Below, piece by piece: positions 36,089 through 60,596 of a stretch of 64,000 nt of DNA. Positions within the stretch are counted from its first letter, which is position 1; each line of letters starts with the position of its first letter. The stretch is from positions 3,365,501 through 3,429,500 of the forward strand of contig NZ_CP023344.1 of assembly GCF_002310495.1 (NCBI RefSeq), read 5' to 3'. The stretch is from Nibricoccus aquaticus. Lineage in GTDB: Bacteria; Verrucomicrobiota; Verrucomicrobiia; Opitutales; Opitutaceae. A model generated the notes under the pieces. The model was not told the DNA's origin. It saw nothing but the letters and a program-made list of their open reading frames with translations, and did no database searches. The translations under genes and the position numbers were made by a program.

Positions 36089-36883
36089 ATGATCTACGAC
36101 CCCAAGAAACTGCTGCTCATTGCCGGTCCGTGTTCGTTGGAGAATGAAAAGGTCTGCCGCGCGGTCGCGGAGACACTCACGAAGATCCAAAAAGAGCAGC
36201 CGGATGTCCGGATCATTTTCAAAGGCTCTTTTGACAAGGCCAACCGCACGTCGATCGCCGGGCCGCGCGGCACAGGACTCGACGAAGGGCTGAAGCTCCA
36301 CGCGCTCATCAAGCGCGATTACGGGTTTCCGTGTGTGACGGACATTCACGAGACGTCGCAGATCAAGCCGGTGGCCGAAGTGTGCGATGTGTTGCAGATC
36401 CCGGCGTTTCTCTGCCGGCAGACTGATTTGCTTCTCGCGGCGGCCGCGACCGGCCGCGTGGTGAACGTGAAGAAAGGGCAGTTTCTTTCACCGCAGGAAA
36501 TGGTGCACGTCACAGGGAAACTCAAAGACGGACATGCGACCGAAGTGTGGCAGACGGAGCGCGGCACGACGTTTGGTTATCAGAACCTCGTCGTGGATAT
36601 GCGCTCGTTCTCGATCATGAAGACAAACGGGTTTCCGACGGTCTTCGATGCGACGCACGCGGTGCAGTTACCGGGCGCCGGTGGTGGAAAGAGCGCGGGT
36701 GAGCGTCAGTTCGTGCCGCCGCTCGCGAAGGCGGCACTGGCGGCGGGCGCAGATGGTTTGTTTATCGAAACGCATCCGAATCCGGCCGAGGCGATCAGCG
36801 ACGGGCCGAATATGGTGCCGCTCGCGGAGATGCCGGCGCTGGTGGAGAAGTGCGTGGCAATCTGGAAGCTCGTGCGGAGCTGA
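36089..36883 (+). CDS. kdsA: 3-deoxy-8-phosphooctulonate synthase (KDO-8-P synthase)
   Basis: This 264-residue TIM-barrel aldolase condenses phosphoenolpyruvate with arabinose 5-phosphate to make KDO-8-P for lipopolysaccharide. Key segments are [43 protein letters not shown] (shown in part), the PEP/phosphate region [11 protein letters not shown], and [10 protein letters not shown]. Its presence supports an LPS-bearing outer membrane. The next gene begins 36 bases later and may be in the same operon. Confidence 0.97.
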
Positions 36884-47060: not shown

Positions 47061-47465
47061 TCAGGCGCGGAAGGCTTCGTTCATGCGGGTGGCGAAGCGT
47101 GGGGGGGGGCGGACGGGGCGGCCCTGGCGGTCGATGAAGGCGTGGAGGGTTTTCCCCGTGGCGATGAGGGTGTCGCCGTTGAAGAGCTCGTATTCGAGGA
47201 GGATGCGGAGGGTGGGCTTTTCGCGGAGCGTGGTGACGATGGTGATGGTGTCGTCGTAGCGCGCGGGGCGGAGGTAGCGGGCGGTGACTTCGAGGACGGG
47301 GAGGAGAAAGCCCTCGGCTTCGAGTTCGCGGTAAGGAAGACCTTGTTCGCGGAGAAGGGTGGTGCGGCCGATCTCGAACCAAGGGAGGTAGCTGCCGTGG
47401 TAAACGACGCCCATCATATCGGTCTCGGCGTAGCGGACGGTGATCTGGCTGCGGGAGGTGATCAT
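47061..47465 (-). CDS. Acyl-CoA/ACP thioesterase (4HBT, YbgC-like)
   Basis: The 134-residue hot-dog fold protein has VRYAETDMMGVVYHGSYLPW, in which the Asp is the catalytic residue of 4-hydroxybenzoyl-CoA thioesterase-type enzymes and the following Tyr-His are typical. The start ATG at 47465 overlaps the stop of the glycosyltransferase gene by one base (TGATG), so translation is coupled. It hydrolyses acyl thioesters; the substrate may come from the divergent acyl-carrier cluster that begins at 48859 (inference). Confidence 0.9.
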   Translation of the reverse strand: MITSRSQITVRYAETDMMGVVYHGSYLPWFEIGRTTLLREQGLPYRELEAEGFLLPVLEVTARYLRPARYDDTITIVTTLREKPTLRILLEYELFNGDTLIATGKTLHAFIDRQGRPVRPPPRFATRMNEAFRA

Positions 47466-48634
47466 CAAAAAGGAGAGGCGCTGGCTTCGGGCGAAGGATT
47501 GAAGAGGAGGCGGGCGGAGTGTTCCCAGCGGTTGCGGCGGGCCCAGTCGTGGCCGGCGGCGCCGAGTCGGGTGCGGAGAGACGAGTCGCTGATGAGTTTT
47601 TCGAAAGCGGCGGAGAGTTGCGCGGGGTGACGGGGAGGGACGAGGAGGCCGGTGACGTTGTCTATGACGGCTTCGGCTACTCCCCCGACGGAGTGAGCGA
47701 CGATCGGCAGGCCGTGGGCGGCGGCTTCGAGGTAGACCAGGCCGAAGCCTTCGACGCTGTGGCGGTAGTCGATGCTGGTCATGGCGAAGACATCGGCGCG
47801 GTCGTAAACCTGATCGAGCTCGTCGTCGGGGAGATCGCCGAAGAAGCGGACGGGGAAGCCGGCTTGGGAGGCGGCGGTGCGCAGGGAATTTTCGTAGCTG
47901 CTTTTGCCGGAGCCGGGGCCGGTGCCGACGATCCAGTATTCGATTTGAGAGCGGAATCGTGGGGCGAGGGCTTGAAGCGCTTCGAGGGTGATGAGCTGGC
48001 CTTTGCGCGGGTGGAGGCGCCCAACGGTGAGGATGACGAGGCGGTTTTTGGGGGCGGACGGAGCGGTGCTGCTGACGACAGCGAAGTCCGAGCGAAGGGC
48101 ACCGGGGGTGATGAACGTTTTGGCGGCTGCTTCGGGGAAACGTTCGCAGAGCAGGTTTTGGGTGTAGTGAGTCAGGGTGCTGATGCGGGTGGCGTTGCGG
48201 ATGAGGCGGCGGGTGTGGGCGCGGAGGATGTGATTATTGGAAAAGCGCAGGATCTCCGAGCCGTGGAAGGTGAGGACGAGGCGGCGAGGGCGGAAGGTTT
48301 TGAAATACTGGAGGAACATCATCGCGAGCATGGGGCCGGGCTCGGGGAGATAGACGGTGGCATAGCGGAGGCGACGGCGTTGGGCGATGAGCTGGCGTGC
48401 GATGCCGATCTGGCAGGCAATGCCGTGGGTGCCTTTGACGGCGAGGCGGCGGATGTGAAACGGCCAGGGCTTCTCGGCGGTCTCGCGGGCGGACTGGGCC
48501 CAGACCTCGACCTCGTGGCCGAGGCCGACGGCAGCGCGGGCGATCTCTTCGGTGAACGTGGCGATGCCGCCGCGTTTCGGGTAGAATTCGTGGGTGATCA
48601 AAAAGACCGGGTTCAGCGCCTGCCCCTCGTTCAT
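47465..48634 (-). CDS. Glycosyltransferase family 4
   Basis: The 389-residue GT-B enzyme starts at 48634 (MNEGQALNPVFLITHEFYPK). The N-terminal domain has the donor-side GGIATFTEEIARAA. The C-terminal domain has LTVGRLHPRKGQLITLEAL, and the retaining GT4 glutamate region is EGFGLVYLEAAAHGLPIVA. It transfers a sugar to an unknown acceptor. It shares an operon with the thioesterase and diverges from the acyl-carrier/dehydratase gene across 224 bases. Confidence 0.93.
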   Translation of the reverse strand: MNEGQALNPVFLITHEFYPKRGGIATFTEEIARAAVGLGHEVEVWAQSARETAEKPWPFHIRRLAVKGTHGIACQIGIARQLIAQRRRLRYATVYLPEPGPMLAMMFLQYFKTFRPRRLVLTFHGSEILRFSNNHILRAHTRRLIRNATRISTLTHYTQNLLCERFPEAAAKTFITPGALRSDFAVVSSTAPSAPKNRLVILTVGRLHPRKGQLITLEALQALAPRFRSQIEYWIVGTGPGSGKSSYENSLRTAASQAGFPVRFFGDLPDDELDQVYDRADVFAMTSIDYRHSVEGFGLVYLEAAAHGLPIVAHSVGGVAEAVIDNVTGLLVPPRHPAQLSAAFEKLISDSSLRTRLGAAGHDWARRNRWEHSARLLFNPSPEASASPF

Positions 48635-48858
48635 GTGGCGCACATGGAGAGCGTGAAACGCTCCGCTGAAAAGCAAAACCTTGGGTGAAACCGAGCGGTC
48701 GCGAGGATGGGGAGCGTGGCGGTTGCGTTGTGCATCCGCATTTTTCCCTACGGCTCTGTGAGTGTTGGCGGGGAACATTACTCACGCGTATCTGACCAGA
48801 GGCGGGCATATTTCCGTTTACATCATTGGCGAGCCAAACTTACTCCGACGTAATAATC

Positions 48859-49902
48859 ATGGCAGACGTAGCTGAACAGGGCCAGAAACCACGGGACACA
48901 GGGCTGGCCGCACCCAAACCCTTTAGTAGTGCTGAAGACGAAATTGCGCTGCGTGACACGCTGAAACGCTGCTCACCGGCCTCGGTCGAGGCGGCGGTGC
49001 AATTTCGCAAAACCAACGACGCCAATCTCGTGCCTTCGGTGGTGATCGGCGTGATCGAGCGTTTCGTGGAGGCCGACATCCGGCCCAAGCTGCGTCACGG
49101 TGACGATGAGCTGCGACTGGTTGAAGATCTCGGCGTCGATTCGCTGACGATGATGGAGATCGTGATCCTCGTGGAGGATGTGCTCCAGATGCAGATCAAT
49201 AATGAGGAGCTGCGGAATCTGCGCACGGTGGGCGATGTAAAGCTGTTCATCGATTGCAAGGTCCGCGGCCTGCCGTTGCCCAAGCCGACGAAGCACATGC
49301 CGATCGAGCAGATCGCGGCGGTCATGCCGATCCAGCCGCCGTTTCTTTTCCTGAACGAGGCGTCGATCAGCAGCCATGCGGCGCAAGGGAAATACAAGAT
49401 CACGGGGCAGGAATTTTTCCTTCAAGGTCACTTTAAGGATAATCCAGTGATGCCGGCTTCGATGATGTTGGAGGCACTGGGTCAGCTCGGCGTGCTGGCC
49501 TTGATCGAGGGAATCATCCCGGCCGAGGCCGGACGTGTGGTGGACCCGAAGACGATTTTCTTCACGTCGTGCGAGGGCGTGCGCTGCCACCGGGTTTGCA
49601 AACCGGGCGATGTGCTCACGCTTTCGGTGAAGCCTAAGCGCGCGAAAATGCCGCTGGCGACGTTTGAGGGATTGATTCGCGTCGGTCAGGAAAAGGCGGC
49701 TGTCGCTGAGGAGATCACGCTGACTTTCGGTTATCTGGAAGCGGTGGCCACGCCGCCAGCGGCGGAAACGGGCGTCGGCGCTTTGGATGCGGCGGCCGCA
49801 TCTGCTCCGGCTTCGGCAACTGGAAAAGCTTCTGCTGGCTCACCGGCGGTGACTCCGGGACAGGCGGCGGCATTCGTGCAGGTTGGCGTGATGCCTGCCT
49901 GA
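48859..49902 (+). CDS. Acyl carrier protein - FabZ-like dehydratase fusion
   Basis: The ATG at 48859 is preferred to a TTG at 48826. The 347-residue protein has an acyl-carrier domain (about 55-136) with the phosphopantetheine Ser95 in EDLGVDSLTMMEIVI. A hot-dog dehydratase domain (about 145-310) has catalytic-type His191 in QGHFKDNPVMP and Glu205 in MMLEALGQLG. An Ala-rich tail follows. The dehydratase should act on 3-hydroxyacyl chains carried by its own domain. It heads the run carrier/dehydratase, ketosynthase, reductase, glycosyltransferase. Confidence 0.9.
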   Translation: MADVAEQGQKPRDTGLAAPKPFSSAEDEIALRDTLKRCSPASVEAAVQFRKTNDANLVPSVVIGVIERFVEADIRPKLRHGDDELRLVEDLGVDSLTMMEIVILVEDVLQMQINNEELRNLRTVGDVKLFIDCKVRGLPLPKPTKHMPIEQIAAVMPIQPPFLFLNEASISSHAAQGKYKITGQEFFLQGHFKDNPVMPASMMLEALGQLGVLALIEGIIPAEAGRVVDPKTIFFTSCEGVRCHRVCKPGDVLTLSVKPKRAKMPLATFEGLIRVGQEKAAVAEEITLTFGYLEAVATPPAAETGVGALDAAAASAPASATGKASAGSPAVTPGQAAAFVQVGVMPA

Positions 49903-50025
49903 GACGCGCGAGTACCGGCCAACCAAACGCGCTGACGCGTTGACGCAGCTGATCGGTTATAGACTGTCAGAATCAGTTGCGACTGGCCTCCCCCGAGGCT
50001 GGCGTCACCTCTGACTTTTTGCCTC

Positions 50026-51285
50026 ATGCCCAAAGTTTACCTGACCGGCCTCGGCTTCATCACCAGCATCGGCAACGACGTTGCCAGCGTGACGCGCAGT
50101 CTGCGCGAACTGCGGCATGGCATCGAGGTGTACGCGCCGTTTCAGAAGCCGGAGATTCCGGTGAAGGTCGCCGCGCCGGTGAAGGGTTTTCAGACGGACT
50201 CGTACGACTGCGAGGACTGGACGTATCCAGAACGTTACCGGGTGAAGCGCGAGATCCTGCGCGGGATGGGGCCGAATGCGTTCTACGCTTACTGCGCGAT
50301 GCAGCAGGCGCTGGAGGACGCGAAGCTGAGCGAGGCGGACTGGTCCAACGACGACACTGGGCTTTATGCGGCATCGGGGGGCTCGCCTTCTCTGATGGGG
50401 CACATGATCCAGAAGATGCACGCGCAGGGAGTCATGCGCTGTTCGCCGCTGGGGATCGTCGCGGGCATCGCGGGCACGGTGAATTTCAACCTGGTGGCGC
50501 ATTTCAAAATCAAGGGAGCCTCGACGGGCTTCTCGTCGGCGTGCGCGTCGTCGTCGCATGGGGCGGGTTTCGCGTACGATGAAATCGCGCTGGGGCGGCA
50601 GAAGCGGATGTTTGTCGTCGGTGCGGAGGATGGGAACGTGGACAGCATTTTGCCGTTTGCGGGTATGCGGGCGCTGTCGTTGCAGACCGATCCGGCGAAG
50701 GCGTCGCGACCGTTCGATGTGGCGCGTGATGGATTTGTGGGGACGGGCGGCGCGACTGTGCTGGTGCTGGAAAGCGAAGACGAAGTCGCGCGGCGTGGAG
50801 TGAAACCTTACTGCGAACTCGCGGGCTGGGGGCAGGCGTCGGACGGGCACAATGTGGCGATCTCGCATCCGGAGGGGTTGGGGATGCGCGCGGCGATGGA
50901 GCGGGCGCTGAAGGCGGCGAAGGTTTCGCCGGCGGAGGTGGATCACATCAATGCGCACGCGACCTCGACGCCGATCGGGGATTTGTCGGAGGCGAAGGCG
51001 CTGCGCGCGATCTTCGGGCCGTCGGGAGCGAAGCCGCTCGTGAGCAGTACGAAGGCGCTCACGGGGCACGGGCTGTCGCTGGCGGGTGCGATGGAGACGG
51101 GGTTTTGCGCGCTGGCGTTGCGCGAGGGGTTTATCCCGGGGTCGGCGCACATCACGCAGCTCGATCCGGCGTGCGCGGATCTTAACATACCGCTCGTGAC
51201 GCAGGACAAGCAGGCGAACGTGGTACTCAATAACAGTAGCGGCTTTGGCGGGGCGAATGTCTGCCTCGTACTGAAGAAGGCCTGA
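50026..51285 (+). CDS. Beta-ketoacyl-ACP synthase (FabF-like)
   Basis: The 419-residue thiolase-fold condensing enzyme has the triad Cys173 (GFSSACASSSHG), His311 (NAHATSTPIGD) and His348 (STKALTGHGLS). It extends acyl-ACP chains by two carbons from malonyl-ACP. It begins 123 bases after the carrier/dehydratase gene and ends 7 before the reductase. An unusual N-terminal segment (HGIEVYAPFQKPEIPVKVAA) differs from housekeeping FabF as I know it, so a dedicated pathway enzyme is more likely. Confidence 0.93.
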   Translation: MPKVYLTGLGFITSIGNDVASVTRSLRELRHGIEVYAPFQKPEIPVKVAAPVKGFQTDSYDCEDWTYPERYRVKREILRGMGPNAFYAYCAMQQALEDAKLSEADWSNDDTGLYAASGGSPSLMGHMIQKMHAQGVMRCSPLGIVAGIAGTVNFNLVAHFKIKGASTGFSSACASSSHGAGFAYDEIALGRQKRMFVVGAEDGNVDSILPFAGMRALSLQTDPAKASRPFDVARDGFVGTGGATVLVLESEDEVARRGVKPYCELAGWGQASDGHNVAISHPEGLGMRAAMERALKAAKVSPAEVDHINAHATSTPIGDLSEAKALRAIFGPSGAKPLVSSTKALTGHGLSLAGAMETGFCALALREGFIPGSAHITQLDPACADLNIPLVTQDKQANVVLNNSSGFGGANVCLVLKKA

Positions 51286-51292
51286 TCTCAAC

Positions 51293-52135
51293 GTGGCCGC
51301 GAAAGAACTTTCCTCTCGTTATCGCCACGCGTTCATCACGGGCGCGTCGGGCGGGCTGGGGCTGGCGTTTGCGAAGATGTTGCTGGCGGAAGGTATTCGC
51401 GTGACGGGCACGGCGCGCGATGTGGCGCGGCTGGCGAGTCTGGCCAAGGACACGCGCTTCACGCCGCTGGCGCTCGATCTGGCGGACGCGCCAGGAGCGG
51501 AGCGGGCGTTTCGCGAGGCGGAGGTGGCGGCGGGTGAAGGCGGGTTCGATCTGGTGATCAATAACGCGGGGTATGGTTTGTTTGGTGCGTTTACGGAGGT
51601 GGATTTTTCGGTCTGGCAGGCGCAGGTCGATGCGTTGCTCAGTGCGACGGCGCGGCTTTCTCATGTCGGGCTGCGCTCGATGCTGCCACGAAAACGCGGG
51701 ACGTTGGTGAACGTATCGTCGCTGGCGGTGGAGTTTCCGCTGCCGTTTATGAGCGGCTACAACATGGCGAAGGCGGCGCTGTCGGCGCTGAGCGAAAGTT
51801 TGATCTTTGAAACGCGGGGCACGGGCGTCACGGTGATCGACCTTCGTCCGGGAGACTATCGGACGGCTTTCAACCAGGCCATGCAGCCCACCGTTCATCT
51901 CAGTGCCAGCGATCCGCGTCTCGCGTCTGCTTGGCGGGAGCTGGAGTCGCATCTGGCGACGGCGCCACTGGCGGTCGCGGCGGCGCGGGATCTGCGGCGG
52001 GCGTTGATGCGCGGGCGTTCGGGGACGGTGAGGTCGGGATCATTTTTCCAGGCGCGGATCGCGCCCTTGTTTTCGCGGCTGGCTCCGGCCCGCGTGCGTC
52101 GTGCGATCATCGCGCGTTATCAAGGAGCCTCTTAA
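51293..52135 (+). CDS. Short-chain dehydrogenase/reductase
   Basis: The 280-residue Rossmann enzyme starts at a GTG. It has the cofactor loop TGASGGLG (16-23), NNAG (90-93) and the catalytic Ser143, Tyr156 and Lys160 (SGYNMAK). Placed after a ketosynthase, it could be the 3-ketoacyl reductase of the pathway, or the ketone reductase acting on an alpha-oxoamine product. Sequence alone cannot tell. It lies 7 bases after the ketosynthase and 3 before the next gene. Confidence 0.88.
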   Translation: MAAKELSSRYRHAFITGASGGLGLAFAKMLLAEGIRVTGTARDVARLASLAKDTRFTPLALDLADAPGAERAFREAEVAAGEGGFDLVINNAGYGLFGAFTEVDFSVWQAQVDALLSATARLSHVGLRSMLPRKRGTLVNVSSLAVEFPLPFMSGYNMAKAALSALSESLIFETRGTGVTVIDLRPGDYRTAFNQAMQPTVHLSASDPRLASAWRELESHLATAPLAVAAARDLRRALMRGRSGTVRSGSFFQARIAPLFSRLAPARVRRAIIARYQGAS

Positions 52136-52138
52136 AGC

Positions 52139-53398
52139 GTGTCCAAACTCCGGATTCTCGTTCTCACCTCAAGCACGGGCGGCGGTCATGACGCGCGCGC
52201 GCAGGCTTTCGCGGAGTGGTGTTTCCAGCTGTACCGCCACGAGATCGATGTGCGCATCGAGCAGATGCTGGAGAAGTCGTCGTTCGTGAACCGGAGTGGA
52301 GTGAATTTCTACAACTGGATTCAGCGCAAGATGCCGATCCTGCACACGGCGTTTTATACGGTGGTCGAAGTGCTCAGCTTTTTGAACAAGCGCACGGTGA
52401 CGCTTGGGCGCGGTTATTATCTGGAGGTCATCCAGGAGTACCGGCCGCATCTGGTGTTCAGCGTTCACGACTGTCTGAACCGCGGGTATTTTCAGCTCGC
52501 GCGAAAAATCCTCGGCGAGGGCAATGTGCGTTGCGCGACGTATTGCGGGGAGTTTTCCGGTGGCTGGGGTTATAGCTTCAACTGGATCGAGCCGACAGTG
52601 GATCTGTATTTTTCGCGCACGCCGACGGCGATGGATTATGCGGTGAAGCAAGGAATCCCGCGTGAGCGCGCGCGGGTGCGCGGGCATCTGATGTTGCCGC
52701 GCGCGCATCAAGAAGTGATGACGCGCGAGGAGCGCGAGGAGTACCGTGTGAAGAAACTCGGGCTGAGGCGTTCGCGGTTCACGGTTTTTCTGGCGACGGG
52801 AAGCAATGGCGCGAACAACCACTTCGACCTGTTGCCGACGCTGCTGCGCCATGCGGACAAGTGCCAAGTGATCATTATCTGCGGGCGCGATCAGCAGACG
52901 TTTAACGAACTCATTCACTGGCGGGCGAATCATCCGGAGCTGCCGTGCTACATTGAGGCGTACTCTGAGATCGTTCATCTGCTCATGCAGGCGAGCGACG
53001 CGATCGTGAGTCGTGGCGGGACGACCTCGTGCGCGAAGGCGCTGAATTTCCGGTGTCCGATCATCTTTAACGCATTTGGCGGGATCATGCCGCAGGAGTC
53101 GCTCACGTGGAAATTTTTCCGCAACGGTGCGGCATCGGAGAAGATCGCGAGCGCGGGGGATTTTGCGCGGTTGTTCGATCGCTGGATGGGCGAGCCGCAA
53201 TCGTACGCGGAGTATCGGAGAAAATTTCTGGAGCTGCGCTATGACGAAGATCCGACGGTGCTCATCGACGAACTGGTGGGGCTGGCGTGGCAGGCGGGGG
53301 GCGGAACGTTGAACCGGCAGCCGTATCCGCCGCGCAGTGGCGGTGGCAATGGGAGCGGAGCGGCGGGTGAGTCGCATGATCCGCACGGGGTGAGTTGA
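52139..53398 (+). CDS. MGDG-synthase-like (GT28) lipid glycosyltransferase
   Basis: The 419-residue protein starts at a GTG 3 bases after the reductase. The opening SKLRILVLTSSTGGGHDARA is the glycine-rich motif of processive diacylglycerol glycosyltransferases and MGDG synthase. The acceptor region is VVEVLSFLNKR and the C-terminal UDP-sugar region is DAIVSRGGTTSCAKALNF. Family members transfer sugars to diacylglycerol or similar lipids at the membrane surface. It is the strongest hint that this operon makes a glycolipid. Confidence 0.9.
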   Translation: MSKLRILVLTSSTGGGHDARAQAFAEWCFQLYRHEIDVRIEQMLEKSSFVNRSGVNFYNWIQRKMPILHTAFYTVVEVLSFLNKRTVTLGRGYYLEVIQEYRPHLVFSVHDCLNRGYFQLARKILGEGNVRCATYCGEFSGGWGYSFNWIEPTVDLYFSRTPTAMDYAVKQGIPRERARVRGHLMLPRAHQEVMTREEREEYRVKKLGLRRSRFTVFLATGSNGANNHFDLLPTLLRHADKCQVIIICGRDQQTFNELIHWRANHPELPCYIEAYSEIVHLLMQASDAIVSRGGTTSCAKALNFRCPIIFNAFGGIMPQESLTWKFFRNGAASEKIASAGDFARLFDRWMGEPQSYAEYRRKFLELRYDEDPTVLIDELVGLAWQAGGGTLNRQPYPPRSGGGNGSGAAGESHDPHGVS

Positions 53399-53522
53399 AC
53401 GGCCGCTCGCAAGTGAAGGCCGGTGCCGGTGGGATGTGAGAGCCGCGTCGCGGATACGAATCGCTCAACGCGCCGGGACGGCGCGTTCCACCTTGAAGGG
53501 CGGCGGTGGCGCGCCACGCTGG

Positions 53523-54743
53523 GTGGCCTTGTCACACGAGCGCCCCAGCATCGCCTATTTATTCACGCGGTTTCCTCACAGCACGGAGACGTTTCTCCAG
53601 CGCGAGATCGTGGCGATGAAACGGCTGGGTGTGGATCTGCGGCTGTATTCGATGTGGGGCGGAGGCGGGGATTTTCACGGGCTGCACGTGAAGGCGTTCA
53701 ACAAGTGGCGGCTGCTGGAGTTGATCTGGATGATTCCGTGGGTGGCGGTGACGCGGTGGGATGTCTTTGGAGTTGTGTGGCGCGGGCTTTGGACGCGGCG
53801 CGCGCCGTCGTTCATCAATTTTGCGGAGAACATGCTCGGGGCGGGATTCGCGTGCGTGTTTTACCGGGCGTGGCGGAAAGATCCGCCGACGCATGTTCAC
53901 GCGGCGTGGGGCGGGGCGCCGGCGACGGCGGCGTGGTGTCTGGCGCGGATGAACGGACTGCGGTTCAGCGCGGGGGCTCATGCGTATGACATTTATGAGC
54001 ACGGTGGCGACTGGTGGCTGAACGAGAAACTGGCGGATGCGGTGTTCGTGCATACCTCGACAGAGATGGGGAAGGTGTCGCTGGTGGAGCGCGGTGTGAC
54101 GGCGGAGAAGGTGCAGGTGATTCGGCGCGGGCTGGATAAATTTCCCGAGTGGAAGCCGCTGCGGGCGGGGCGTGCGGAGACGCTGCGGATCGTGTGCGTG
54201 GCGCGGCTCGTCGAGAAGAAGGGGCTGGATCATCAGCTGCGGATGTATGCGGCGCTGAAGGCGGCGGGTGTGGCGTTTGAGGCGCGGATCATCGGCGACG
54301 GACCGTTGCGGGAGCCGATGAAGGCGATGAGCGTGGAGCTGGGCGTGAGCGAGTGCGTGGCGTTTATGGGGCATCTGTCGCAGCCGGATGTGTGGGCGCA
54401 GCTGGCGTGGGCGGATGTGCTCGTGCACACGGGTGTGATCGCGCCGAGCGGGGATCGAGATGGGTTGCCGAATGTGATTCCGGAGGCGATGTCGGCGGGC
54501 GTGGCTGTGGTGACGTCGCCTGCGGCGGCTACAACGGAAGCGATTCACGACGGCGAAACGGGGTTGGCTGCGGAGGTGACGGATGTTGCGGCGTGGGTGG
54601 AAGCGTTGAGATTGCTGGCGACGGATGATCAAAAGGCGGAGCGGCTGCGGTGTGCGGCGCGGGAGTGGGTGGAGGAGAATTTCGATGCGCATAAGAACGC
54701 GGCGCGATTGCATGCGCTGTTTATGGAGGCGACGGCGCGATGA
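53523..54743 (+). CDS. Glycosyltransferase family 4
   Basis: The protein is clear from SIAYLFTRFPHSTETFLQRE onward. I place the start at a GTG at 53523; a GTG at 53436 would add 29 basic residues that look non-coding. There is no convincing ribosome site for either. The product has about 406 residues. The donor domain shows RIVCVARLVEKKGLDHQLRM and the EGLPNVIPEAMSAGV-like segment GLPNVIPEAMSAGVAVVTSP. Its stop overlaps the next glycosyltransferase start (ATGA). Confidence 0.88.
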   Translation: MALSHERPSIAYLFTRFPHSTETFLQREIVAMKRLGVDLRLYSMWGGGGDFHGLHVKAFNKWRLLELIWMIPWVAVTRWDVFGVVWRGLWTRRAPSFINFAENMLGAGFACVFYRAWRKDPPTHVHAAWGGAPATAAWCLARMNGLRFSAGAHAYDIYEHGGDWWLNEKLADAVFVHTSTEMGKVSLVERGVTAEKVQVIRRGLDKFPEWKPLRAGRAETLRIVCVARLVEKKGLDHQLRMYAALKAAGVAFEARIIGDGPLREPMKAMSVELGVSECVAFMGHLSQPDVWAQLAWADVLVHTGVIAPSGDRDGLPNVIPEAMSAGVAVVTSPAAATTEAIHDGETGLAAEVTDVAAWVEALRLLATDDQKAERLRCAAREWVEENFDAHKNAARLHALFMEATAR

Positions 54744-55789
54744 TTTATTTCGACGTCACGAAGATGGGAGTGGCGAAGCATCGCTCGGGGTTGATGCGCG
54801 TGAGCGGGCGGTTGCGCGATGAGCTGGGTGCAGCGGTGAGCGAAGTGGTGTGGCGGGAGCGCGCGTGGTGGAGCACTGGGAAAGACGCGGCGCGCGTGGC
54901 GTTGAAGGCGGAGGATTGGGTGCTGACGGCAGAGTTGTTTTGCGAAACGGAGCGGCCGGGGTTCTGGGAGTTTTTGAGGGAGAAGCCGTGCCGGGTGGCG
55001 GCGACGTTTAACGATGCGATTCCGCTGAAACATCCGCACATCACGTGGCCGCAGAGTGTGGCGCGGCATCCGGAGTACATGAAGATGCTGGCGGCGTTTG
55101 ATCGCGTGTTCGCGATTTCGGAGGCGAGCAAGGCGGAGCTGACGGAGTTCTGGCGGTGGCAGGGAGTCGAGCGATGCGCGGCGGTGGAGACGATTTCGCT
55201 CGGGGCGAATTTTTTGAAAGGGTCGAGGCCGCCGATGGAGGCGGTGCGGGTGGGCGCGGTGCCGTCGTTGATGACGGTGGGGATTTTGGAGCCGCGAAAG
55301 AATCAGGAATTTCTATTGGAGGTGTGCGAGGCGCTGTGGAGCGAAGGGGTGGGGTTTGAGCTGCACGTGGTGGGGCGGGTGAATCCGCATTTCGGGAAAC
55401 CGGTCGTGGAGAAAATCGCGGAGTTGCGGAAGCGCGGGCGGCGCGTGACGCATCACGAAGGCGTGAGCGATGAGGTGTTGCTGAAACTTTATCGGGAGGC
55501 GCGCGCGACGATTTTTCCGACGATTGCGGAGGGCTGCGGGCTGCCGGTGCTGGAGTCGTTGTGGCTTGGGGTGCCGTGCGTGTGCAGCGATCTGCCGGTG
55601 CTGCGGGAGAACGCGGATGGCGGCGGATGCGTGGCGGTGGCACTGAACGATCAGGCGGCGTGGGTGAGCGCGCTGCGGCGGGTGATCACGGATGATGCGT
55701 GGTGCGCAAAGCTGCGCACGGAGGCGGCGGGGCGGGTGTTGCCGACGTGGGCGGAGGCGGCGGGGGCGCTGCGCAATCTATGTACTTAA
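54740..55789 (+). CDS. Glycosyltransferase family 4
   Basis: The 349-residue protein is coupled to the preceding gene. It has VKMG-like opening MIYFDVTKMGVAKHRSG, acceptor-side FNDAIPLKHPHITWP, donor-side LMTVGILEPRKNQEFLLEV and AEGCGLPVLESLWLGVPCV. It shares these blocks with the protein at 58621-59790, for example FNDAI/FHDAI and FWRWQG/YWRWLG, so the two are paralogues on opposite strands. The acceptor is unknown. Confidence 0.88.
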   Translation: MIYFDVTKMGVAKHRSGLMRVSGRLRDELGAAVSEVVWRERAWWSTGKDAARVALKAEDWVLTAELFCETERPGFWEFLREKPCRVAATFNDAIPLKHPHITWPQSVARHPEYMKMLAAFDRVFAISEASKAELTEFWRWQGVERCAAVETISLGANFLKGSRPPMEAVRVGAVPSLMTVGILEPRKNQEFLLEVCEALWSEGVGFELHVVGRVNPHFGKPVVEKIAELRKRGRRVTHHEGVSDEVLLKLYREARATIFPTIAEGCGLPVLESLWLGVPCVCSDLPVLRENADGGGCVAVALNDQAAWVSALRRVITDDAWCAKLRTEAAGRVLPTWAEAAGALRNLCT

Positions 55790-56191
55790 CGTCTCAATGA
55801 TCACTTTGGCAGCGTAGTAGGACAGCGCCAAAACAACGATGGCGATGGCAATGCCGGACCAAGCGCTCCTATGCGTCGCAGTTTGACGGACATCTGCGGC
55901 GATTTTTTTTGGGAAATTTCTCCCGTACGCAAAAAACCAGATCATCACGAGAACCAGACCAAGCACAGGACCGAATGCCACCTGCGCAACTGGAGGGAGA
56001 TCAAGCGGCACGAAGCTACAGCTTACGAGAATTGCGAACATCGCAGCGGCCCAAGCTACGCTCTTGATATATTCCTTCGGCTTGCCGGCCGCTCGATAGT
56101 TCAGGGATTGCAGAATAGGCGCCGAAAGCGGGCTAAGTAAAACCCCTGTCCCAATAACAACATTCACGGACCAAAACTTGGCGTTTTTCAT
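55778..56191 (-). CDS. Hypothetical integral membrane protein, AT-rich gene
   Basis: The 137-residue protein has about four hydrophobic segments: VNVVIGTGVLLSPLSAPIL, SVAWAAAMFAILVSCSF, FGPVLGLVLVMIWFFAYG and GIAIAIVVLALSYYAAKVII. It has no known motif. The gene is richer in A/T than its neighbours, and its 3' end overlaps the convergent glycosyltransferase by 12 bases. This suggests a late arrival beside the sugar genes. Confidence 0.65.
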   Translation of the reverse strand: MKNAKFWSVNVVIGTGVLLSPLSAPILQSLNYRAAGKPKEYIKSVAWAAAMFAILVSCSFVPLDLPPVAQVAFGPVLGLVLVMIWFFAYGRNFPKKIAADVRQTATHRSAWSGIAIAIVVLALSYYAAKVIIETLST

Positions 56192-56224
56192 TTTAGCCTA
56201 GGTGAGTGTGTTTCAGGTGGGCGC

Positions 56225-57421
56225 TCAGAGCTTTTTCACCGCGTAGGCCATGGCGTCTGCGATGCGGGCGAGATCTTCGTCGCTGTGGAGGGCGGAGATG
56301 GCGGTGCGGATCAGATCCTTGCCGGGCGGAACGGCGGGGGCGATGGACATGATGGTGAAGATGTTTTTTTCGAGGAGGGCCTGCCAGAAGCGGTAGGCGC
56401 GTTCTTTGGAGCCGAGCACGATCGGGACGGCGGGGGTTTCGCTTTCCCACGTGTCTAGGCCGAGGCTGTGGAGCATGGCGCGGTAGCGTTGCGCGTTTTT
56501 CTGCAGGCGCTCGTGGTGGTGCGGCTCGGTCTGGATGATATCGAGGGCGGTCGAGGCGCAGGCGGCCTGGGAGGGGCTGAGGGCGGCGCTGAAGATGGTG
56601 TGTTTCGAGTGGGTGCGGAGGTACTCAATGAGGTCGCGGGAGCCGGCGACGAAGCCGCCGGTGGAGGCGAGGGACTTCGACATGGAGGCGCAGAGGATAT
56701 CGATCTCGGCGTTGAGGCCGAAGTGATCGATGGTGCCGCGGCCCTGGCGGCCGAGGACGCCGAAGCCGTGGGCGTCGTCGAGGACGGTGAAGCAGCCGAG
56801 GTCTTTGACGGCGGCGAGGAGCTCGGGGATTTTCGCGATGTGCCCTTCCATCGAATACACACCTTCGAGGACGAGCATCTTGGGGGCGTCGGGCGAGAGT
56901 GTGGCCGCGACTTCGCGTAGGTCGGCGACGCTGTTGTGGGAGAAGCGTTCGACGGTGGCGTGGGAGAGGCGGATGCCGTCCCAGAGGCAGGAGTGGAGGT
57001 TTTTATCGGCGAGGATAAGGTCGCCTTTCTGGGCGTAGGCGGCGACACCGGCCATGCAGGAGAGGTAACCGGCGGCGTGGACGTGGCAGGCTTCGCGGCC
57101 GAGGAAGGCGGCGAGTTTTTCTTCGAGCTCGATGTGGTAAGCGCGGGAGCCGTTGGCGGAGCGGGCGCCGGTGGGGCTGGCGCCCCATTGGAGCATGGCG
57201 GCGCGGCCGGCCTCGATGACCTTGGGGTGAAAGGAGAGGCCGAGGTAGTCGTTGCTCGCGAGCATGATCATGTCGCGGCCGTCGTGGCGGATGTGCGTGC
57301 CTTGCTGGGCGTCGATGGGGCGGTAGTACGGGTTGTACTTGAGGCGCATCTCCGTGGCGTGGTCGTCGCGGCAACGCGCGAGGATGGGCTTGGTGTTTTT
57401 GGAGAAGAACGGGAACGCCAT
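56225..57421 (-). CDS. PLP-dependent alpha-oxoamine synthase (serine palmitoyltransferase/BioF family)
   Basis: The 398-residue enzyme starts at 57421 (MAFPFFSKNTKPILARC). It carries NPYYRPIDAQQGTH, SNDYLGLSFHPKV, His143 for ring stacking, Asp215/Asp216 with His218 in LDDAHGFGVLG, and the Schiff-base Lys249 in ASMSKSLASTGGFVAG. Family enzymes join an amino acid to an acyl thioester with loss of CO2. The opening and the SKSLASTGGF loop look closer, from memory, to Bacteroidetes serine palmitoyltransferase than to BioF. No bio genes are adjacent. The specificity is therefore an inference. Confidence 0.85.
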   Translation of the reverse strand: MAFPFFSKNTKPILARCRDDHATEMRLKYNPYYRPIDAQQGTHIRHDGRDMIMLASNDYLGLSFHPKVIEAGRAAMLQWGASPTGARSANGSRAYHIELEEKLAAFLGREACHVHAAGYLSCMAGVAAYAQKGDLILADKNLHSCLWDGIRLSHATVERFSHNSVADLREVAATLSPDAPKMLVLEGVYSMEGHIAKIPELLAAVKDLGCFTVLDDAHGFGVLGRQGRGTIDHFGLNAEIDILCASMSKSLASTGGFVAGSRDLIEYLRTHSKHTIFSAALSPSQAACASTALDIIQTEPHHHERLQKNAQRYRAMLHSLGLDTWESETPAVPIVLGSKERAYRFWQALLEKNIFTIMSIAPAVPPGKDLIRTAISALHSDEDLARIADAMAYAVKKL

Positions 57422-57494
57422 GGGTGGCGGAAAATGGCGGGCGGGCGGGCGGATTGGCAAACGGAAAGCCGGGAGGCCGGGGGGGAGTGACGAC

Positions 57495-58620: not shown

Positions 58621-59790
58621 TTATCTGTGGAGGGGCAGCGTGGGGAGCCAGGCGAGGAGGTCGCGGGCGTAATCGGGCCAGGTGCGGAAGGTGCGGGCGC
58701 GGGCCTGGGCGATGAGGGCGTCGCGGGCGGCGGAATCGGTCAGGAGTTTTTCGATACCGCTGGCGAGGCTCACGGAGTCGACACGGTCGAGGGTGAGGCA
58801 GCCGCCGTCGCGGGTGGATTCGCCGAGGGCGCCGTGGGCGGAGCAGAGGCAGGGTTTGCCGTGAGAGAGGGATTCGAGGACGGGGAGGCCGAAGCCTTCA
58901 TAGAGCGACGGGTAAACGGTGAAGGCGCAGCGGGCGTAGGCGGCGTTGAGCGCAGCTTCGTCGACGGGGCCGTCGTAGCGGAGGGGGTGGCCGGCGGATT
59001 GGAGGACGCGGATTTTTTCGAGGGCAGCGCGGCCGGTTTGGGGTTGGGCGAGGCCGATGAGGTGGAGTTCGAAGCGGAGGCCGCGGGACCAGAGGGATTC
59101 GGCGGCGTCGAGGAGAGCGAGGTGGTTTTTGCGTCCTTCGATGCTGCCGACGGAGAGGACGACGGGGGGCTGATTTTCAGAGGGAGTGTCACGTAATATG
59201 TGACACTTTTCGAGGGCGAGGGGGAGGGCGGCGACGGGTGGGGGGGCGGTGAGGCCGAGCCAGCGCCAGTAGTCGAGGAGGGTCTGGCGGGAGTCTTCGG
59301 AGTTGGCGGCGATGCCGTCGAAGGCGAGGAGTTCGCGGAGGTAGGCAGGGAAGCGGGCGACGGTTTTTGACGGGGTGAGCTCGGGGAATTTGAGAGCGAT
59401 GGCGTCGTGGAAGATGGCGATGCGCGGGCCGCGGACGCGGGCGAAAAGTGCGGGGAACGCGGAGGCGGTGGTGGCGGAGAAGATTTCCGGGACGATGAGC
59501 GCGGAGGCGGCGGGGAGTGCGGGTGGACGGAGGCCGAGGGTGCGCGCGGTGCGGCCGGCGAGGCGGGCGGGGAGGGGCCAGCGGGCGGAGCGTTTGGGGG
59601 ACGGGGCGGTGCTGGCGAGGTTGGCGGTTTCCCACGGGGCGAGCGGGCGCCAGGTGTTGCGATGAGGATCGTGGGTGATCGCGGTGACGGCGGTGGAGGC
59701 GGCGAGCGCGGTGTGGAGGGAGCGGCAGACGCGTTGGACGCCGGTGCGGGCGTGGGTGTGGCTGGTGTGGCTGAGGTCGAGGAGAAGCAT
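58621..59790 (-). CDS. Glycosyltransferase family 4
   Basis: The start is the ATG at 59790 (MLLLDLSHTSHTHARTGVQR), giving 389 residues; the frame is open further up but is the wrong frame of ctaG. The acceptor side has IAIFHDAIALKFPELTP. The donor side has VLSVGSIEGRKNHLALLDAA and YEGFGLPVLESLSHGKPCL. It is a paralogue of the protein at 54740. The linker between the domains (residues around 195-205) is encoded by an AT-rich palindrome. It follows ctaG by 5 bases on the same strand. Confidence 0.88.
   Translation of the reverse strand: MLLLDLSHTSHTHARTGVQRVCRSLHTALAASTAVTAITHDPHRNTWRPLAPWETANLASTAPSPKRSARWPLPARLAGRTARTLGLRPPALPAASALIVPEIFSATTASAFPALFARVRGPRIAIFHDAIALKFPELTPSKTVARFPAYLRELLAFDGIAANSEDSRQTLLDYWRWLGLTAPPPVAALPLALEKCHILRDTPSENQPPVVLSVGSIEGRKNHLALLDAAESLWSRGLRFELHLIGLAQPQTGRAALEKIRVLQSAGHPLRYDGPVDEAALNAAYARCAFTVYPSLYEGFGLPVLESLSHGKPCLCSAHGALGESTRDGGCLTLDRVDSVSLASGIEKLLTDSAARDALIAQARARTFRTWPDYARDLLAWLPTLPLHR
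59185..59207. repeat. AT-rich perfect palindrome inside a glycosyltransferase gene
   Basis: AGTGTCAC (59185-59192) and GTGACACT (59200-59207) flank GTAATAT. It is in frame with the gene and encodes part of the linker between its two domains. The composition is unlike the surrounding GC-rich coding sequence. Confidence 0.75.
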
Positions 59791-59795
59791 CCGTG

Positions 59796-60596
59796 TCAGG
59801 CGGTGCGGGAGGCGGGCTTGCCCTCGGTTTGCTGGTACCAGCGGTAGAAGGCGATGACGAGGGCGACGAAGGTGACGAAGAGTCCGCCGAGTTTCATGAC
59901 GGAGGCGCCGAGGAGCTGGTCCTGGGCGGGGGAGAAGTTGTTGAAGAGGCGCGGGGCGTACTCGTAGGTCGGGTACAGGATGTTGTCGGCGAAGGCGAGG
60001 AAGGCGAAGAGCGGGGTCATGCCGATGGTGACGGCGAGCAGGTAGATCATCTGCGGGCCGTGGCCGAGGGGCGGGAATTCGCGGGAAGGGCTGAGGACGG
60101 GCCACCAGTAGAGGAGCGCGGTGGCGAAGAACATGACGTGTTCGAGGACGTGGATGAATTTATCCTGAAGGGCCCAATCGTAGAGGCCGGGGGCGTGCCA
60201 GATGGAGATGGTGAGGGTGTAGATCACGCCGCAGATGACCGGATGGGTAAGGATGCGCAGGAATGGGCGTAGTGATGGGCGGGCGGTGATGGGGGCGACG
60301 AGCCAGTGGGGGAGGCCGAGGAGGAAGAGGATGGCGGAGCCGTAGATGAGCAGCTGGTGCTGGATCATGTGGGCGGTGAGAAGGAAACGTTCGCCGATCT
60401 GGTCGAGAGGAGAACCGACGGCCAGGTAGAAGATGACGAGGGCGGCGTAGAAACGGACGGCGTGGGCAAGCGGGTAGGCTGCGCCGGGGGCGATGCGGGC
60501 GCGGAGAGGGCCGGTGAAAATCGCGTAGAGCCAGCCGAGGACGATGAGGCCGCCGACGAGGTAGGGTTCGTTATGCCAGTGGCGCCAGTCGATCAT
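59796..60596 (-). CDS. ctaG: Cytochrome c oxidase assembly factor CtaG (caa3 type)
   Basis: The 266-residue protein has about seven membrane helices. AHMIQHQLLIYGSAILFLLG and HVLEHVMFFATALLYWWPVL hold the conserved His residues of the caa3_CtaG family, thought to aid copper delivery or assembly of oxidase subunit I. It is the last oxidase gene of the minus-strand set, 245 bases after subunit IV, with a terminator in between, so it may have its own promoter. Confidence 0.92.
   Translation of the reverse strand: MIDWRHWHNEPYLVGGLIVLGWLYAIFTGPLRARIAPGAAYPLAHAVRFYAALVIFYLAVGSPLDQIGERFLLTAHMIQHQLLIYGSAILFLLGLPHWLVAPITARPSLRPFLRILTHPVICGVIYTLTISIWHAPGLYDWALQDKFIHVLEHVMFFATALLYWWPVLSPSREFPPLGHGPQMIYLLAVTIGMTPLFAFLAFADNILYPTYEYAPRLFNNFSPAQDQLLGASVMKLGGLFVTFVALVIAFYRWYQQTEGKPASRTA

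Follow-up and report, generated by a model that had tools for sequence, protein, structure and literature searches.

A conserved gene block in Nibricoccus aquaticus and other Verrucomicrobiia with a proposed role in making a glycosylated sphingoid-type lipid

A stretch of 64,000 nucleotides from the genome of Nibricoccus aquaticus (Opitutaceae, Verrucomicrobiota; contig NZ_CP023344.1 of assembly GCF_002310495.1, positions 3,365,501 to 3,429,500; hereafter the window) contains a block of genes for an acyl carrier protein (ACP) fused to a FabZ-type dehydratase (ACP-DH), a ketosynthase (KS), a short-chain dehydrogenase/reductase (SDR), glycosyltransferases (GT) of the GT28 and GT4 families, a thioesterase (TE) and an alpha-oxoamine synthase (AOS) (Table 1). 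The block is probably inherited as a single pathway, the product of which would be a glycosylated envelope lipid of sphingoid type (alpha-oxoamine-derived). A preliminary description of the window had proposed a dedicated lipid or glycolipid pathway at this place, a proposal that is well supported by the synteny, co-inheritance and joint loss of the genes.

Conservation of the gene block

The gene order of the block recurs in relatives whose loci were picked solely for encoding an ACP-DH protein (36 loci, each up to 20 kb). The KS gene directly follows the ACP-DH gene in 29 of these 36 loci, while a GT28 gene is found in 22 and an AOS gene in 14. Across the family the block is syntenic in most of the genera examined, with the order TE-GT4 / ACP-DH, KS, SDR, GT28, GT4, GT4 / AOS, and in most relatives the genes are not scattered. 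In some genomes the AOS gene has moved off the locus yet is still encoded in the same genome. More specifically, both ACP-DH and AOS are present in 70 of 95 relatives and both are absent from 18, leaving six with ACP-DH only and one with AOS only; one of these seven discordant genomes is 50% complete. Within the family, ACP-DH is missing from three genomes, G043, G046 and G060 (84-99% complete), and so is the AOS; G046 is 84% complete, and G043 and G060 (98%) are near-complete. Gene order and co-occurrence are more than chance, with the proviso that the co-occurrence tests count genomes and not independent events, so that their p-values overstate the association.

A profile search with ACP-DH finds the fusion in further orders of the class, and 20 such loci were read. 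They exhibit two arrangements. In the first, a GT4 gene and the ACP-DH-KS-SDR run are accompanied by a GT28 gene on the opposite strand, and the AOS gene lies 4-14 kb off in several genomes. In the second, the order is AOS-ACP-DH-KS, and the opposite strand carries GT28, SDR and two or three GT4 genes; the AOS gene is directly beside ACP-DH-KS in three families of these other orders. The GT28 gene is kept together with the rest of the set throughout the class. Among 236 genomes of the class, 44 possess both ACP-DH and AOS, six ACP-DH only, one AOS only and 185 neither, where broken or partial reads were accepted as evidence of the AOS in G308 and G257 and the dehydratase-only matches of one genus were left out. 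That the set has survived rearrangement speaks most strongly for a single pathway, and it is likely that one pathway has been kept across the class.

Identity of the enzymes

The window AOS is 37% identical to the serine palmitoyltransferase (SPT) of S. multivorum, 35% to that of E. coli BL21 and 37% to RkpG, as compared with 29% to Kbl and 30% to BioF. A class-wide AOS clade (support 100/100) groups with the S. multivorum and E. coli BL21 SPTs (100/96), apart from Kbl, BioF and RkpG, and its nearest neighbour in the tree is an uncharacterised AOS of Rubrobacter. On this placement the window AOS belongs to the SPT clade; the lysine that binds pyridoxal phosphate (Lys262) and residues His156, Asp228 and His231 are invariant.

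The SDR falls in a clade separate from FabG and ApeQ (98/99). RkpH stands beside it in the tree, but on a long branch. We propose that the SDR is a dedicated keto-lipid reductase acting on a 3-keto-long-chain base, and its clade position is in keeping with this. Three relatives (G007, G011 and G047) have the block in two parts, with SDR-GT28-GT4-GT4-AOS at the second place (L082, L084 and L087), which suggests a joint function of the SDR with the AOS and glycosyltransferase half. However, the SDR gene remains with the KS gene in G071 and G081, and its association with the AOS is thus not decisive. The preliminary description had offered two products, a polyene or hydroxyacyl chain and a glycosylated sphingoid-like lipid. 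The latter is favoured by the position of the AOS within the SPT clade and of the SDR outside the FabG clade and, in several families belonging to other orders, by an AOS gene that adjoins ACP-DH-KS.

Five ketosynthases are encoded in the source genome, and the housekeeping FabF adjoins FabG and AcpP at a locus apart from the window (L057), so that the window KS is not the sole FabF of the organism. In a tree of 38 ketosynthases the window KS forms with its orthologues the sister group of E. coli FabB (100/97), separate from FabF; every full-length KS in this tree retains the Cys-His-Lys-His residues, which in the window enzyme align with C163, H298, K328 and H333 of FabB and show that the active site is intact, as had been claimed. 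The solved chains nearest to the window KS are also beta-ketoacyl-ACP synthase I (KAS I) enzymes. By these comparisons the window KS is an enzyme of the KAS I branch, not the housekeeping FabF. A housekeeping fatty acid synthase (FAS) operon was rejected as an explanation of the block because of the five ketosynthases, the placement of FabF with FabG and AcpP elsewhere and the FabB-branch position of the window KS.

In the fusion protein, the phosphopantetheine-bearing Ser106 of the carrier and the dehydratase residues His202 and Glu216 are invariant in 18 orthologues. Its AlphaFold model (mean predicted local distance difference test score, pLDDT, 79) superimposes on FabZ structures with a template modelling score (TM) of about 0.9 across the dehydratase domain. 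Carrier and dehydratase are separate adjacent genes in some relatives. Ahead of its carrier domain the protein also has a conserved N-terminal helical extension in which a Leu-x-Arg-Cys motif (residues 46-49) is invariant in 18 of 18 orthologues.

An aryl-polyene (APE)- or flexirubin-like polyene as the product is the least probable of the alternatives weighed here. The polyene idea has a basis in that the cluster has an ACP, a dehydratase, a KS, a reductase and a thioesterase of its own, as APE clusters do, and contains no enoyl reductase, as the preliminary description had observed. In addition, the TE matches ApeK at 29%, and paralogues of the KS and ACP occur in an APE-type cluster of G040 and near such a cluster in the source genome; the closest KS paralogue (57% identical) belongs to a second clade. 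In both genomes the APE-type cluster encodes ApeD, E, H, J, M and O homologues, and in the source genome (G000:C1:2641000-2662000; L117 and L056) it is situated about 9 kb from the paralogous KS and ACP pair. However, the polyene cluster lies elsewhere and the paralogous KS forms a clade of its own, while the window cluster has no matches to the MMPL exporter, AMP ligase, chain-length-factor KS, LolA or acyltransferase genes of APE clusters. ApeM, ApeH and ApeC in particular found no match in the window, and homologues of ApeM and ApeH are located in separate clusters (L117 and L111). Conversely, the AOS and GT28 of the window are without counterpart in APE clusters and its SDR lies outside the clade of FabG and ApeQ. 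The polyene is therefore disfavoured.

The source genome encodes one detected FabI outside the cluster. Full reduction in trans would consequently be possible, and the sequence cannot call the chain saturated or unsaturated. This FabI belongs to a second unusual lipid locus (G000:C1:205000-224000; L058:1392-10478) that also carries a 3-oxoacyl-ACP synthase III scoring above cut-off, a haloalkane-dehalogenase-like hydrolase, FabZ, a FabF-like KS and two CrtI/carotenoid-isomerase-like proteins, and that resembles ole or ladderane-type gene sets.

The proposed pathway and its alternatives

The linkage of the genes, their enzyme families, the intact active sites and the place of the AOS in the SPT clade are observed, whereas we infer the reactions of the pathway and their order, as well as the length and unsaturation of the chain, the amino acid, the sugars and the role of the product. 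An acyl chain on the dedicated ACP would be lengthened by the KAS I-type KS, and the FabZ-type domain of the fusion would dehydrate it; housekeeping enzymes would carry out the keto- and enoyl-reduction, or the chain would stay partly unsaturated. The AOS would then join the acyl-ACP to an amino acid, most likely serine, to give a 3-keto long-chain base, the keto group of which would be reduced by the SDR. The GT28 enzyme would attach the first sugar and the GT4 enzymes would lengthen the glycan; some lineages probably export this glycan through a Wzm/Wzt-like ATP-binding cassette (ABC) system. A possible task of the thioesterase is to remove or correct acyl-ACP that has stalled. The product could serve as a membrane glycolipid or as the lipid anchor of a surface glycan.

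Several observations weigh against a sphingoid-type product. The best NCBIfam model for the AOS is SerpalmtaseCFB, at 351 bits below its cut-off of 640. The SPT-typical GSR motif reads GAR in the window AOS and in other Opitutaceae, a change that could alter the choice of amino acid, although GSR is present in several orthologues outside the family. A literature search on the polar lipids of Opitutaceae returned no lipid data for the group. The known partners of ceramide synthesis were sought in the source genome with E. coli BL21 proteins as probes, YghO being taken as the ceramide synthase bCerS from its place beside the BL21 SPT operon and from the location of its matches near AOS genes. 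bCerS found no match, CerR found partial matches only (E 4e-8 or weaker) and AasR found no close homologue, its best match being 29% identical (E 8e-55). A complete ceramide is thus unexplained unless other enzymes perform the bCerS, CerR and AasR steps, and the canonical ceramide pathway was rejected for this genome on these grounds. Either the pathway stops at a glycosylated long-chain base or it uses an unrelated N-acyltransferase. The best AasR match is an AMP-ligase-like gene (G000:C1:3443042-3444598; 520 residues aligned with the acyl-AMP ligase of E. coli BL21) that lies about 20 kb beyond the AOS gene, past the end of the window.

A clear bCerS homologue does occur in eight relatives, in five of them near another AOS (G008, G036, G040, G043 and G059), and seven of the eight also keep an AOS of the window type. 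Given this coexistence, redundancy between the two kinds of AOS is unlikely. In G043, G036 and G040, open reading frames (ORFs) of about 1,320-1,370 codons (L217:4833-8792, L218:637-4737 and L229:5442-9491, respectively) encode an RkpG-like AOS with a bCerS homologue beside it. G008 has a separate, apparently acquired sphingolipid locus of proteobacterial type (L216:4153-12557) with homologues of AcpR, AasR and bCerS and an SPT 50% identical to that of E. coli BL21.

A further point against a sphingoid product is that six of the 95 relatives possess ACP-DH without the AOS (G009, G075, G079, G080, G082 and G094), from which it follows that the acyl module can serve something else. This is also an argument for the view that the module is a side branch of fatty acid synthesis, resembling FabA/FabB or AcpXL systems and supplying unsaturated or very long chains to phospholipids or lipid A, while the AOS and glycosyltransferase genes do a separate job. 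The AcpXL genes of Rhizobiales for very-long-chain fatty acids comprise a dedicated ACP, a FabZ-type dehydratase, one or more ketosynthases and a reductase, as does the present cluster; in contrast, the present cluster has AOS and GT genes in place of a lipid A acyltransferase, and its ACP and dehydratase are fused. The side branch accords with the sister relationship of the KS to FabB and with several neighbours in relatives: the gene for WaaA, the Kdo (3-deoxy-D-manno-oct-2-ulosonic acid) transferase, within about 10 bases after the KS gene in G075 and G094, which are of one genus (G075: L074:10236-12780); heptosyltransferase-like genes near GTb in L043, L069 and L108; LpxK in L052; and lpxD in L065 and L092. 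However, WaaA occurs almost throughout the order (80 of 81 good genomes), also where the cluster is missing, and in the source genome its gene is 385 kb away from the cluster. As its adjacency is a single genus-level event, an origin in lipopolysaccharide or lipid A synthesis is kept as a rival only. ACP-DH and AOS are, moreover, co-inherited, jointly lost and re-associated in other orders, and the absence of the set from G060, at 98% completeness, indicates that it is not an essential route to unsaturated chains. We therefore regard the side branch as unlikely, if the foremost of the alternatives.

Comparison with known systems places the cluster, judged by the trees and homologue searches given here, in none of the AcpR-SPT, SgaAB and rkp-1 systems, though its AOS is in the SPT clade. 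The proteobacterial ceramide pathway (AcpR-AasR-SPT-bCerS-CerR; Caulobacter, E. coli BL21) also combines an SPT-clade AOS with a linked specialised carrier, AcpR being the precedent for a dedicated acyl carrier that serves SPT (PMC9386255), and its ceramide is further decorated in known cases. In addition to the partners missing here, the SDR is of another type, and the fusion of the carrier to a dehydratase and the presence of its own KS suggest that the chain would be built on the carrier and not loaded from free fatty acid. In Pseudomonas fluorescens, the polyketide synthase (PKS) SgaA feeds the SPT-like AOS SgaB to give PKS-derived sphinganines (PMC12134224). A dedicated chain builder that feeds an SPT-like AOS is thus common to both, but the present cluster has discrete type II enzymes instead of an iterative type I PKS, as well as several glycosyltransferases and a dedicated SDR.

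The rkp-1 region of Sinorhizobium (rkpA-G-H-I-J, rkpF) likewise unites a chain-building FAS, an AOS, an SDR and surface-glycan genes, and these enzymes are thought to make the lipophilic carrier or anchor of the capsule (PMC3557214; see also PMC3908369). A system of the same logic, in which the lipid is mainly an anchor or carrier of capsular polysaccharide and not a free membrane glycolipid, would fit the clusters of L257 and L258, from two families outside the order, which end with a permease gene of the ABC-2 type and a gene for an ABC ATPase such as serves in polysaccharide export (Wzm/Wzt-like). Those of L258 were checked with Pfam; an outer-membrane efflux gene flanks this locus, and L260 has an ATPase-like match at the same place. 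However, the exporter is found in one cluster arrangement only, and the rkp-1 synthase is a large type I FAS/PKS whereas that of the present cluster is type II. Neither an RkpA-type enzyme nor any capsule gene resembling KpsC/KpsS was recognised among the genes of the window, RkpA aligning only with the window KS (26%). The AOS is outside the RkpG branch, and orthology with RkpG was rejected because the tree places RkpG together with the AOS that are fused and bCerS-linked in G036, G040 and G043 (100/100). An rkp-1-like system accordingly seems improbable, somewhat more so than the fatty acid side branch. Divergent from the ABC exporter in L258 (the cluster of G175) is a gene for a PlsC-type acyltransferase (L258:17793-18824), a possible acyltransferase partner or a chance neighbour.

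A glycosylated sphingoid-type lipid made in this manner appears to differ from the known bacterial ways to sphingosine-like lipids. We tentatively suggest, at somewhat less than even confidence, a third bacterial route to sphingoid bases, in which a dedicated type II module of KAS I ketosynthase and ACP-dehydratase fusion builds a tailored chain and passes it, still bound to the carrier, to an SPT-clade AOS, and glycosylation follows without a known ceramide synthase, and with it an unrecognised glyco-sphingoid class in several orders of Verrucomicrobiota. Spt-like genes without known ceramide partners have been reported in many phyla, and the portion of this Black Sea survey drawn on here places such genes in Verrucomicrobiota and contains no description of the present cluster (PMC11334938). 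The cluster provides one such Spt-like lineage with a concrete gene set, in which candidates for supplying the chain, reducing the keto group and attaching the sugars can be named, and from it an unusual envelope lipid is predicted in a widespread group with sparsely studied lipids. A dedicated module is thereby told apart from the housekeeping FabF, FabZ and FabG, two functions that annotation pipelines would merge.

Gene catalogue and surroundings

The source genome (G000) is a single contig of 4.73 Mb. Genes of the window were re-derived from ORF lists and typed with Pfam and NCBIfam; NCBIfam matches of the GT and SDR genes were mostly below cut-off, and no function was named from them. The coordinates and families of the preliminary description were borne out, including the carrier-dehydratase fusion, the short gaps after the KS gene, the divergent TE-GT4 pair, the two GT4 genes downstream and the more distant AOS gene.

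Table 1. Genes of the block, with window coordinates (position 1 is the first nucleotide of the window)
Predicted product	Coordinates	Strand	Basis and remarks
4HBT/YbgC-FadM-type thioesterase (TE)	47061..47468	-	Pfam PF13279/PF03061; divergent arm; beside GT4 gene in many relatives
GT4 glycosyltransferase GTa	47465..48778	-	Pfam PF00534; divergent from ACP-DH, both in Opitutales and in further orders of the class
ACP fused to FabZ-type 3-hydroxyacyl dehydratase (ACP-DH)	48826..49902	+	Pfam PF00550 and PF07977
Beta-ketoacyl-ACP synthase (KS), KAS I (FabB) branch	50026..51285	+	Tree, intact active site
SDR reductase outside FabG clade	51293..52135	+	Pfam PF00106, tree; 7-base gap after KS
GT28/MGDG (monogalactosyldiacylglycerol)-synthase-like glycosyltransferase	52139..53398	+	Pfam PF04101; PF06925 below cut-off; 3-base gap after SDR
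GT4 glycosyltransferase GTb, EpsE-like	53436..54743	+	Pfam/NCBIfam, neighbourhood in relatives
GT4 glycosyltransferase GTc	54740..55789	+	Pfam, neighbourhood in relatives
Alpha-oxoamine synthase (AOS), BioF-SPT family, serine palmitoyltransferase clade	56225..57460	-	Trees, catalytic residues; 2.8 kb past GT28 gene
GT4-like glycosyltransferase GTd	58621..60105	-	Beside AOS; NCBIfam TIGR04047 below cut-off

The block thus reads TE(-) GT4(-) / ACP-DH(+) KS(+) SDR(+) GT28(+) GT4(+) GT4(+) / AOS(-) GT4(-), the TE and GTa genes overlapping by 4 bases. The last of these genes, GTd, was absent from the preliminary description and is part of the conserved block in many relatives. Two of the tabulated starts are those of the longest ORF: for ACP-DH the in-frame ATG at 48859 is likelier than 48826, and for the AOS the internal ATG at 57421 is likely, as most orthologues begin at the matching place. 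About 10 kb upstream of the cluster the window encodes KdsA, the Kdo-8-phosphate synthase (36089-36883).

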